Source: Pseudomaricurvus alkylphenolicus
Lineage (GTDB): Bacteria > Pseudomonadota > Gammaproteobacteria > Pseudomonadales > Cellvibrionaceae
NCBI RefSeq assembly: GCF_011683955.1
Contig: NZ_JAAQPI010000016.1
Coordinates: 1-64,000 of the forward strand
DNA: 64,000 bases
Direction of reading: 5' to 3'
Shown here: piece after piece, positions 59,161 to 61,773 of the stretch
Layout: the number at the start of each line of letters is the position of its first letter
How positions within the stretch are numbered: the first letter of the stretch is position 1
The notes under the pieces: generated by a model
Database searches by the model: none
The model's input: the letters and a program-made list of their open reading frames with translations, nothing else
Told to the model about the DNA's origin: nothing
Made by a program: the position numbers and the translations under genes

Positions 59161-60225
59161 TTACCTCGTTGGTGACACCACGTCAGGGCGTCGGTTGTAC
59201 ACTTTTCGCATCTTTTCTGACCGGTGGCCTGCATCTTTCTCCGGGTGGTCAGTCAGACCTTTAGCCTTAAGATCATGTGCATGGAAACGGGCTTCGAGCT
59301 TTACCTGCTTGCCGTCAATATGGGCGCCATTCTCAAGTGCCAGTTTCATCACCCGCGCCCATGCCGTTTTGAAGGATTCCATTCGGATGCCGCCCCCCTT
59401 GGTGTTGGTAACCAGGGGCTGACCCTTCATTTTCCGCGGCCTATCAGCACGTAAAGATCTCGCAAAAGCAACCGCAGCCTCAAGCCTTGGCGACCATTGT
59501 GTGATCTCACTGTCTGAGCCCTTACCGCGCTGGGCGAATATGCCGTCTTTCTGCAAGTGTTCCTCGGTTAGCTTACATGCTTCATTCGGTCGTAGCCGGC
59601 ACAGATAGATAAACTCCATCAGCGGGGCAATGTAGCTATAGCTTGCGTGCTGAGCCGCCACCTCGTAAACGATATTGTATTCATGGTCATCAACATATCG
59701 ATCCCTTGGTTTTTCTTTGAACTTTCTGACGCCCTTGCAAGGGTTGACGTCACAATATTGTCGCTCGCGGCCCCAGTTGAACAGGGTGCTCAAAAAGCTG
59801 TGACACCTGTTCGCATTTACAGGGTGCTTTGCGCCTCTAGCGTCCATGAATTTCCGTACATGGTGCGCACGGACTGCGCGAGGGTCCATTTTTCCAAAAA
59901 CCGGCTCTACTGTTTTACGGTAATTTCGCTGATCAGCCTGTGAAGAGACGGCGAGATCCCGGAATTGCTGACTTATAAAGTACTTATCAATGAGCGCTGA
60001 CACAGTATCTCTTTTGACCAATTCAGCCTGCTTTTCATCAAAAGCCTGTAAAACACGCAATCGAATGTCGGGAGTCTCGATAACTTCTCCATCCTGGCTT
60101 TTGGTTAGTGCCAAAAGTTTGATTGCTCCGCCGCCTTTAGGGTGCCACTCATATGCGGATTTGCCCCGATATACCCGGGAGGGAAGCCATTTGTCAGCTT
60201 TATTGGTTCTTTGCTTGGGGGCCAT
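59161..60225 (-). CDS. Tyrosine-type phage integrase
   Basis: The 354-residue recombinase has an N-terminal arm/core domain and a C-terminal catalytic domain. Arg212 is in FIYLCRLRPNEACKL. The HxxR box reads HDLK (His317, Lys320), with GHRS (His334) and the likely nucleophile Tyr343 in MRKVYNRR. Lys in place of the second Arg fits a phage subfamily that I recall with HDLKAKG. Its 3' end points at tRNA-His, the expected target. It overlaps the DUF4224 gene by 1 bp. Confidence 0.92.
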   Translation of the reverse strand: MAPKQRTNKADKWLPSRVYRGKSAYEWHPKGGGAIKLLALTKSQDGEVIETPDIRLRVLQAFDEKQAELVKRDTVSALIDKYFISQQFRDLAVSSQADQRNYRKTVEPVFGKMDPRAVRAHHVRKFMDARGAKHPVNANRCHSFLSTLFNWGRERQYCDVNPCKGVRKFKEKPRDRYVDDHEYNIVYEVAAQHASYSYIAPLMEFIYLCRLRPNEACKLTEEHLQKDGIFAQRGKGSDSEITQWSPRLEAAVAFARSLRADRPRKMKGQPLVTNTKGGGIRMESFKTAWARVMKLALENGAHIDGKQVKLEARFHAHDLKAKGLTDHPEKDAGHRSEKMRKVYNRRPDVVSPTR

Positions 60226-60443
60226 TACTGCAGGCTCTCCAGGTCGAATCCATCGTTAGCGGGCGAAGAGGGCAGAGCAGTAGATCCCGCGAGGCGAGCG
60301 TTTACCGCCTCCCAAGTTGTGGTCGGCCCACCGTTTAATCTCTTAATGTAGCCGATTCTGTGCTCTTCCAGAACCTCGATTTGCTTGGAGGGCACCTTGG
60401 CTCCAGTGAGTTCTTGCATTTCTTTTGGGGTTAGAAGGCTCAT
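60225..60443 (-). CDS. DUF4224-domain protein, possible excisionase partner
   Basis: The product (72 residues from the ATG at 60443) reads LLTPKEMQELTGAKVPSKQIEVLEEHRIGYIKRLNGGPTTTWEAVNARL, the DUF4224 pattern, a small helix-turn-helix-like domain commonly found next to phage integrases. It probably helps recombination directionality or regulation. GAGAGG lies directly before the ATG, which is too close, so an upstream TTG (60467) is an alternative start. Confidence 0.82.
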   Translation of the reverse strand: MSLLTPKEMQELTGAKVPSKQIEVLEEHRIGYIKRLNGGPTTTWEAVNARLAGSTALPSSPANDGFDLESLQ

Positions 60444-60497
60444 CCTCTCACCATCGTTAATCGTCAAAAATGGAGCATGTTGGGGTTATTCGGGCGC

Positions 60498-60843: not shown

Positions 60844-61773
60844 TTACTTGTTAAATTGTGTCGACAGCAGGGTGTAAGCAGCCGCGGCTTGCAGTGGCAC
60901 CTGGCCATTACCCAAACACTTTATTCGGTTGACCCGATTGGCCACCCCATCAGCCACTCGACCCACGTTGGGTTCAACTGACCACCATGCTGGCGTTTGA
61001 CCTCTCGACCGAGACTCACTGTGTTTTGGTTCGGTCCCGCGCCCCGACTGTCCCCGGCGACCGGTGTTGGCCACAAGTTGTGCCTGGCCATCGTTTCCAG
61101 TGATGGGCGCATCTTCCCGGTCCTGCCGGCTCCGCCTCCCTGATTCGTCCCGTAGCTGCTGGCTGTCGGAGTTGGAAACTTCTCGGCATAACCTGCGAGA
61201 GTTGTTCCTCTCTTTGGTTGACCCTTCGCCGCTCCTTCCCCGGCTACCTGGACGTTGCTCTGTGTGGTCGGCGTCGGCACGCCTTGCAAGACACCACCAG
61301 CGAGCTCGTAAGTGCGGTGCACCAGCTGCCGAAGCGGGAAGGACACACCATCTTGCATCAAACCCCAGCTCGGCCAGGTCCCCGAGAACGGTACCGAGTC
61401 CCCGAGTAGAGATAGCTGGGCTGTTTTCCAGGAACAGCTCTCGGGGTCGAATGACGCCAGCGACTCGCTTAACCTCTTTCCAGAGCCCGCTTCGCTCTCC
61501 CTCAATGCCAGCGCCATTACCGGCTGTTGAAATATCCTGGCAAGGGAATCCCGCATGGATGCTATCCACTCGTCCGGTCCAGTCGGATGGATCGAACAGC
61601 TGGACGTCTCCATGGTGCACGTGCAGCCCTGGGAACCATCCGTCATCTGCTCTTCGTTGGAGCACTCCGGCTGCGTAGTCGTCCCACTCGACGGCAAAAA
61701 CTGGTCTGTGTCCAAGAATGAGGTCTGCATATAATCCGCCTCCGGCGCCTGCAAAAAGATGTCCTGTTCTCAC
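60844..61773 (-). CDS. Phage DNA (cytosine-5)-methyltransferase
   Basis: The 309 residues hold the C5-methyltransferase motifs in order. Motif I is LFAGAGGGLYADLILG, and motif IV is GFPCQDIS with the catalytic Cys78. Motif VI appears as LFLENSPAI (ENS for the usual ENV), and motif VIII as APHLRARWW. Motifs IX/X are in WWSVEPNVGRVADGVANRVNRIKCLGNGQVP. The target-recognition part is short and low in hydrophobics. No restriction partner is seen, so it is an orphan phage enzyme, perhaps guarding DNA from host restriction. The start is GTG, 6 bp after the preceding stop. A second 269-codon frame lies inside it. Confidence 0.9.
   Translation of the reverse strand: MRTGHLFAGAGGGLYADLILGHRPVFAVEWDDYAAGVLQRRADDGWFPGLHVHHGDVQLFDPSDWTGRVDSIHAGFPCQDISTAGNGAGIEGERSGLWKEVKRVAGVIRPRELFLENSPAISTRGLGTVLGDLAELGFDARWCVLPASAAGAPHLRARWWCLARRADADHTEQRPGSRGRSGEGSTKERNNSRRLCREVSNSDSQQLRDESGRRSRQDREDAPITGNDGQAQLVANTGRRGQSGRGTEPKHSESRSRGQTPAWWSVEPNVGRVADGVANRVNRIKCLGNGQVPLQAAAAYTLLSTQFNK
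60921..61730 (-). CDS. Overlapping ORF in the +1 frame of the methyltransferase gene (269 aa)
   Basis: An uninterrupted frame of 269 codons lies wholly within the methyltransferase gene, shifted by one base. Its ATG (61730) has GGAGG exactly 8 nt upstream. The product is Ser/Thr/Trp-rich and contains phrases that I recall from annotated phage proteins: ESLASFDPESCSWKTAQLSLLGDS, RPSLETMARHNLWPTP and LNPTWVEWLMGWPIG near the end. These are the alternate reading of methyltransferase motifs (SLARIF over FPCQDIS, WVEWLMGWP over GRVADGVAN). It may be a genuine overprinted gene or a by-product of conserved motifs; translation is unproven. Confidence 0.45.
   Translation of the reverse strand: MQTSFLDTDQFLPSSGTTTQPECSNEEQMTDGSQGCTCTMETSSCSIHPTGPDEWIASMRDSLARIFQQPVMALALRESEAGSGKRLSESLASFDPESCSWKTAQLSLLGDSVPFSGTWPSWGLMQDGVSFPLRQLVHRTYELAGGVLQGVPTPTTQSNVQVAGEGAAKGQPKRGTTLAGYAEKFPTPTASSYGTNQGGGAGRTGKMRPSLETMARHNLWPTPVAGDSRGAGPNQNTVSLGREVKRQHGGQLNPTWVEWLMGWPIGSTE

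Follow-up and report, generated by a model that had tools for sequence, protein, structure and literature searches.

A C5-cytosine DNA methyltransferase gene of Pseudomaricurvus alkylphenolicus (alpha) contains, offset by one base, a second reading frame (beta) that is real and under selection. Conserved sequence motifs, structure models and the comparison of relatives make it very probable that the two products are parts of one two-subunit C5 methyltransferase, similar in its working to M.EcoHK31I, with the gene for beta nested in that for alpha. Alpha (frame 1) would fold into the catalytic large domain, its motifs I–VIII binding S-adenosylmethionine and attacking cytosine and its motif X closing the fold, with about 100 unstructured residues between VIII and X where motif IX and a target-recognition domain would be expected. 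The missing part would come from beta (frame 2), in the form of motif IX, the PTP boxes and a conserved SWKT/ETWPRWG block. We infer that one message yields both products, translation of beta beginning at an internal start codon, and that they assemble into a single methylating enzyme, which presumably shields the phage genome against host restriction.

The locus and its two frames

The window is the whole analysed stretch of 64,000 nucleotides from contig NZ_JAAQPI010000016.1. The features discussed below are the following:

60844..61773, minus strand: alpha, C5-cytosine DNA methyltransferase subunit, an ORF of 309 aa with a GTG start and motifs I–VIII and X
60921..61730, minus strand: beta, second gene nested in alpha in the +1 frame, 269 codons from ATG 61730 (phrog_1008 match, stop depletion, wobble switch)
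61739..61743, minus strand: GGAGG, 8 nt upstream of ATG 61730 and a candidate ribosome site for the long beta form
60921..61556, minus strand: possible short beta form from ATG 61556 (MRDSL...), close to where relatives show a second start (alpha residues 69–71)
61735..61764, minus strand: alpha motif I, GHLFAGAGGG, as read from the sequence
61528..61548, minus strand: alpha motif IV, FPCQDIS, including the catalytic cysteine, as read from the sequence
61300..61323, minus strand: alpha motif VIII region, GAPHLRAR, as read from the sequence
60958..61248, minus strand: alpha residues 176–272, without predicted structure by pLDDT; by the wobble switch, beta constraint prevails over most of it
60895..60924, minus strand: alpha motif X, IKCLGNGQVP, residues 284–293, from sequence and model
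61347..61463, minus strand: conserved beta block SLASFDPESCSWKTAQLSLLGDSVPFSGTWPSWGLMQDG, overlapping alpha motifs VI–VII and conserved in both frames
61149..61178, minus strand: beta PTPTA box, FPTPTASSYG, conserved among relatives
61050..61076, minus strand: beta PTP box, LWPTPVAGD, conserved among relatives
60924..60986, minus strand: putative beta motif IX, GGQLNPTWVEWLMGWPIGSTE, by conservation and position; the same DNA reads WWSVEPNVGRVADGVANRVNRI in alpha
59161..60225, minus strand: phage integrase-like gene adjoining the pair (Pfam Phage_int_M, E 4.8e-05; Phage_integrase, E 0.0011; both below the Pfam cut-offs)
60225..60467, minus strand: DUF4224 protein (Pfam), between the integrase and the methyltransferase region

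As the original prediction had stated, the methyltransferase is intact and the 269-codon frame inside it runs without a stop; the +1 frame is open across 60921–61754 on the minus strand, i.e. upstream of ATG 61730 as well. The ATG does lie 8 nt after GGAGG, which is made of the codons for the glycines of alpha motif I and thus proves little by itself. Two phrases of the second product had further been presented as alternate readings of methyltransferase motifs. This is correct for LNPTWVEWLMGWPIG, the second-frame reading of the segment that contains VGRVADGVAN, and incorrect for RPSLETMARHNLWPTP, whose DNA encodes methyltransferase residues 222–238 (APITGNDGQAQLVANTG). FPCQDIS, which we take to be motif IV from established knowledge of C5 methyltransferases, reads DSLARIFQ in the second frame.

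The neighbouring integrase-like gene places the pair in a prophage context. Among ten neighbouring proteins Pfam shows no restriction endonuclease family. The locus is also included in an IMG/VR virus contig, whose methyltransferase is 100% identical to that of the window. The assembly of the window measures 8.9 Mb, against 4.0–5.7 Mb for five genomes listed under the same genus.

Alpha is a catalytic domain and beta probably carries the remainder

Alpha matches PF00145 (E 1.3e-28, 100.8 bits against a Pfam cut-off of 22) and phrog_363 (E 2.6e-60), and it has the catalytic large domain of that family, with motifs I, IV, VI and VIII, and motif X in the same chain. Its structure model is confident up to about residue 170 and again from 277, where the motif X region forms confident helices at 277–288 and 293–308; residues 170–276 are assigned no secondary structure at all, with pLDDT below 50 at 189–262 and 264–272. 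The best Foldseek match is M.HhaI (E 7e-13), whose chain of 327 residues is aligned in 171 columns and in the large domain only. No target-recognition domain or motif IX was found in the alpha chain, residues ~176–276 being unstructured in the model and the IX-like motif lying in the other frame. With both parts outside it, alpha alone would not be a complete single-chain member of PF00145.

Beta has no match among Pfam families and matches phrog_1008 (E 4.3e-31), whose label is DNA methyltransferase. Three blocks are conserved in it: DPxxxSWKTxQxSLL...ETWPRWGxM, the WPTPxA boxes and GGxLNPxWVEWLMGWPxGWTD. In the last of these we identify LNPxWVEWLMGWPxGW as the likely motif IX of C5 methyltransferases, by its position, its spacing and its occurrence in fusions rather than by a significant profile score. 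In sister loci the beta motif stands just ahead of motif X. Phages Heather, Phanphagia, ArV1 and phiBT1 have an alpha that stops after motif VIII and a second ORF with a LSPEFAEWLMG-type motif and a GNGVVP-type motif X, and in Rhodococcus phage ReT1v-2 both motifs are in the alpha frame and beta ends ahead of them. Gordonia phage Leonard gp5 is a single chain with the alpha profile at 5–193, followed by PTP boxes, a motif of IX type and X; ORF2 of Phanphagia aligns with its residues 333–516 at 44.6% identity over 186 aa. Among the phage records matching Leonard gp5, 128 of 690 have one place covering at least 80% of it, joined pieces allowed, and single-piece matches make up 32 of the 50 listed. 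LAGLIDADG or HNH endonuclease genes are annotated inside the region that matches the fused methyltransferase in several Gordonia phages, among them Hans, Sedona and Bibwit, which suggests homing elements there.

The spacing from IX to X is 31–33 residues in actinophage ORFs and fusions, 29 and 33 in the ordinary enzymes Miro and Javan318, and 57–79 in three of the loci collected here (L195, L210 and L237). Profile comparison connects the beta family of the window with actinophage-type C-termini at an hhalign probability of 99.7, although 3 of the 8 C-terminal rows are closely related to the window's beta. When beta-type C-termini were compared with two ordinary C5 enzymes, the IX–X segment was aligned at E 0.46, not significant, a PDB search pointed to the IX–X segment of plant DRM at E 1.7, likewise not significant, and Pfam and NCBIfam gave no methyltransferase matches for these C-termini. 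The model of beta alone is poor (pLDDT 60, pTM 0.29), which might be expected of a half that depends on its partner and is not evidence for one. It matches no PDB fold (best E 1.3); in a viral structure library its best hits, a phage protein that bears the name methyltransferase (E 3.1e-5, TM 0.17) and a second protein without a name (E 5.8e-4), are of little value as evidence.

The lack of a Pfam family and of a fold match would suit a beta that is an independent protein merely sharing DNA with alpha, such as the small regulator or anti-restriction partner that had been proposed for it. We consider this very unlikely, since the strongest block of beta is motif IX by position and shares a chain with motif X in seven loci (L003, L004, L008, L195, L210, L237 and L258) and with motifs I–VIII in Leonard gp5 and its relatives, and since alpha has no predicted small domain. 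By position and by the natural fusions, beta would hold motif IX together with the target-recognition region, and its most likely role is that of the missing second subunit of the enzyme.

Layouts among relatives

Relatives were collected from viral contigs with a beta query (at least 600 stretches matched, 596 confirmed, 80 kept) and an alpha query (99 stretches, 96 confirmed, 80 kept), and from bacterial and archaeal genomes with a pattern of the beta family (458 stretches, 261 confirmed, best 80 kept). In the best 80 of the 261 bacterial and archaeal loci there is no stand-alone beta without an overlapping alpha, alpha being in register in 80 of 80. At L224 alpha is in register and divided over two frames. 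By tblastn, beta occurs in 57 and alpha in 1228 records of annotated phages; beta is also found in 4 plasmid records and in 4 of 38 related genomes.

For 261 fetched loci the layout was assigned by profile searches, as a pattern search alone missed the motif pair in 84 of them. Motif IX is in beta and X in alpha, with alpha in one open frame, in 235 loci, and in 5 more with a stop in alpha; both motifs are in beta in 7 (the seven loci named above) and both in alpha in 2. A further 6 are frame-broken otherwise, 3 have IX in beta and no X found, and 3 have neither motif (two ordinary enzymes and one cut locus). Some contigs are present twice among the 261, and beta queries supplied 160 of the loci, so that these counts are not prevalences. 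At L070, L072, L139, L141, L142 and L224 the motifs are unusually spread over the frames, which may reflect sequencing errors or recent indels.

Different regions are constrained by different frames

Position 1 of an alpha codon is position 3 (wobble) of a beta codon, and the rate of change at each position thus tells which protein is being kept. We compared 21 close pairs, after collapsing sequences at least 97.5% alike; 26 pairs before collapsing gave the same outcome. Per site, the pairs differ at alpha positions 1/2/3 by 0.052/0/0.336 over residues 5–20, 0.085/0.039/0.123 at 101–165, 0.373/0.210/0.217 at 166–262, 0.170/0.048/0.070 at 263–283 and 0.081/0.024/0.262 at 284–303. Position 3 is the fastest at residues 5–165 and 284–303, and position 1 at 166–262 (20 of 21 pairs, 1 tie) and at 263–283 (17 of 21, with 1 opposite and 3 ties). 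Alpha prevails at both ends, both frames are tight at 101–165 and beta prevails at 166–283. The same is seen in single boxes: the T and P of LWPTPVAGD are conserved in 96% and 92% of 112 relatives, and the alpha residues there in 44% and 35%.

These rates bear on the status of VGRVADGVAN. If this were alpha's own motif IX, alpha would be a complete enzyme that beta only stabilises or tunes; the segment looks like a conserved motif, and alpha residues 271–280 do keep residual conservation beyond that imposed by beta (2.84 versus 1.81). However, position 1 is more variable than position 3 at 263–283, so that beta drives the segment and VGRVADGVAN is largely its shadow, and the model of alpha is disordered at 189–262 and 264–272. 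A self-sufficient alpha is accordingly, in our view, highly improbable.

Likewise highly improbable is a programmed frameshift, by which ribosomes would slip from the alpha to the beta frame and make one fused chain with no separate beta. The natural single-chain fusions of actinophages and the non-uniform start signals of beta (see below) would agree with it. At alpha residues 101–165, however, each frame is conserved beyond the other, and both must be translated there. Moreover, alpha is kept open as far as motif X, which a frameshift-only product would lose: in the region from the PTP boxes to IX, 151 de-duplicated beta-selected loci have 23 alpha-frame stops against 593 expected from beta-synonymous shuffles (24 against 618 in 157 loci before de-duplication). 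That alpha stays open across a region dominated by beta argues against such a product and fits translation of both frames. Sixteen of the 23 stops fall in L195, L210 and L237, precisely the three with motif X in the beta frame; alpha thus seems to be kept open only where motif X must be reached. These three loci show a natural frame swap: motif X has shifted to beta, and stops then occur in the alpha frame.

Stops are depleted from the beta frame

Stop counts in the beta frame were compared with a null in which synonymous codons are shuffled within each gene; it keeps the alpha protein and codon usage and does not keep shared ancestry, which a nearly saturated subset and the codon-position rates above address. 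In 126 non-redundant relatives, included if alpha was open in a single frame from close to its start as far as motif X, alpha residues 61–262 have 3 stops in the +1 frame where ∼412 are expected. The depletion sets in near alpha residue 21 (5 versus 43.5 at residues 21–40), and beyond residue 300, where beta ends, stops exceed expectation. The result holds for loci found by alpha only: 58 non-redundant ones have 1 stop versus 173.1 expected, and 57 of them are stop-free in the +1 frame versus 2.7 expected. In the nearly saturated subset of 20 sequences (core identity at most 70%, fourfold third-position identity 0.43) there is 1 stop versus 61.9. A first pass had given 20 versus 274.5 for 61 alpha-query loci and 8 versus 263.4 for 66 beta-query loci, with no depletion in the +2 frame (872 versus 768 and 937 versus 802, respectively). 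Stops scattered freely through the +1 frame of relatives, named in the original prediction as the observation to set against it, are therefore not what the relatives show, and its view of an overprinted, dual-coding gene pair with both frames selected is borne out by the stop depletion and the wobble switch.

Single genes carry less information. The window alone has 0 stops at alpha residues 15–283 versus 4.2 expected (P = 0.002, synonymous shuffling), and 11 phage and plasmid genes mostly have few or zero +1 stops, some of these tests being non-significant (Vibrio ZQ26, P 0.27; Leyra, P 0.09). The ordinary single-chain C5 genes Miro and Javan318 have 7 and 5 +1 stops, respectively, with mild depletion in the latter (5 versus 8.6 expected, P 0.023).

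It had also been considered that chance, or conserved motifs and high G+C, kept stops out of the second frame, and that the similar proteins in databases are spurious; beta belongs to no Pfam family, its GGAGG codes for motif I and part of the second-frame similarity is imposed by alpha (null scores exceed 0 in many bins), but depletion beyond synonymous shuffles in the +1 and not the +2 frame, the switch in wobble position, beta boxes conserved where alpha is not and the stops in the two ordinary genes reduce the probability of such an artefact to almost nothing. The second frame looks like a real gene, and its homologues are, as had been supposed, annotated as separate proteins in other phages (Leyra gp62, Phanphagia gp66 and ArV1_067b).

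The start of beta and the state of the window's copy

A ribosome-site-like motif followed by ATG, GTG or TTG is found at alpha residue 15, where the window has its ATG, in 50 of the 126 relatives versus 25.1 expected, and again at residue 69 (44 versus 16.2) and residue 71 (21 versus 5.6). The peaks appear once TTG is included; with ATG and GTG only, no peak with such a site was seen. By locus, 29 have the early signal only, 22 the late only, 26 both and 49 neither, and no single conserved start site of beta was found among the 126. At ATG 61556 of the window a ribosome-site-like motif is absent.

The window's beta lacks the family tail, ending in GSTE where most relatives have GWTDLK and ∼20 further residues. 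It has S for W (GST for GWT) at a position that is W in 67% of relatives, and its stop sits where 72% of them have leucine. Judging by these three sequence features, this copy could be impaired. Its closest relative among those compared has 82% alpha-core identity.

DISCUSSION

Strong support is rare for long same-strand gene overlaps outside small viruses; here selection acts on both frames over ∼200 codons, and the probable functions of the two products complement each other in a single enzyme. We lean, by a modest degree, towards a more general view, in which the pair belongs to a large and ancient class of C5 methyltransferases, found in phages and prophages, whose catalytic and DNA-recognition subunits are encoded in two frames of the same DNA. 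Small indels would have moved motifs IX and X between the frames more than once, giving rise to nested, split and fused forms; VGRVADGVAN would be largely a shadow of beta motif IX; and many members annotated as single genes would be inactive without their unannotated partner. The two-subunit reading would account for the two overlapping 'DNA methylase' genes in phage records and for the annotation of phiBT1 gp9.1 as possibly inactive. It would also give a probable identity to phrog_1008. For practical work, expression from the annotated methyltransferase ORF alone may give no activity, and the locus offers a natural case in which to study how a single sequence can meet the demands of two subunits.

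Two annotations can be described in this regard. In phiBT1 (L258, NC_004664.2, 1486–1986) gp9.1 is annotated as a DNA methylase, maybe inactive, and an unannotated overlapping ORF with motifs IX and X lies directly behind it. In Rhodococcus phage ReT1v-2 (L007, 1190–2393) the beta frame is annotated as a hypothetical protein (1489–2163), and the name 'DNA methyltransferase' is given only to the IX–X tail (2241–2393) of a long methyltransferase ORF.

No description of a nested second subunit in phage methyltransferases was found in the literature searched, which took in few subscription papers and no REBASE entries. An HNH endonuclease gene lying out of frame within an insertion in another phage methylase, as described in PMC11855218, is a different case.

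Among known systems, the two-polypeptide C5 enzyme M.EcoHK31I (YGGCCR), compared here by description, resembles the window most in the distribution of motifs, with I–VIII and X in the large chain and IX in the small one. In work attributed to Lee et al. (1995), its small polypeptide is said to be read from another frame within the large one. For the window, the presence of motif IX alone in the small polypeptide is indicated by position and by spacing in sister loci, the profile score (E 0.46) being not significant. PMC3404938 assigns motifs I–VIII, X and a predicted target-recognition domain to the large M.EcoHK31I polypeptide and motif IX only to the small one. In contrast, residues 166–262 of the window's alpha are disordered in the model and mainly beta-constrained; target recognition seems to be placed differently, and we therefore do not file the window as a member of the M.EcoHK31I type. 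M.AquI (CYCGRG) is a split enzyme with motifs IX–X in the small polypeptide (PMC3404938). The second ORF likewise has both motifs in the seven loci listed above, whereas the window's motif X lies in alpha and the two genes overlap over nearly their whole length.

The DNA methylases of actinophages (Leonard gp5, Mycobacterium phage DLane gp65, Phanphagia gp65/gp66 and ArV1_067a/067b) consist of the same building blocks as the pair in the window, and their second ORFs match phrog_1008 as the window's beta does. Unlike in the window, the blocks of the fused forms are in one frame, and in the split forms alpha ends after VIII and X is in the second ORF. The single-chain C5 enzymes M.HhaI and M.HaeIII share the catalytic domain of alpha, but alpha matches their large domain only, without a target-recognition domain of the usual form or motif IX.
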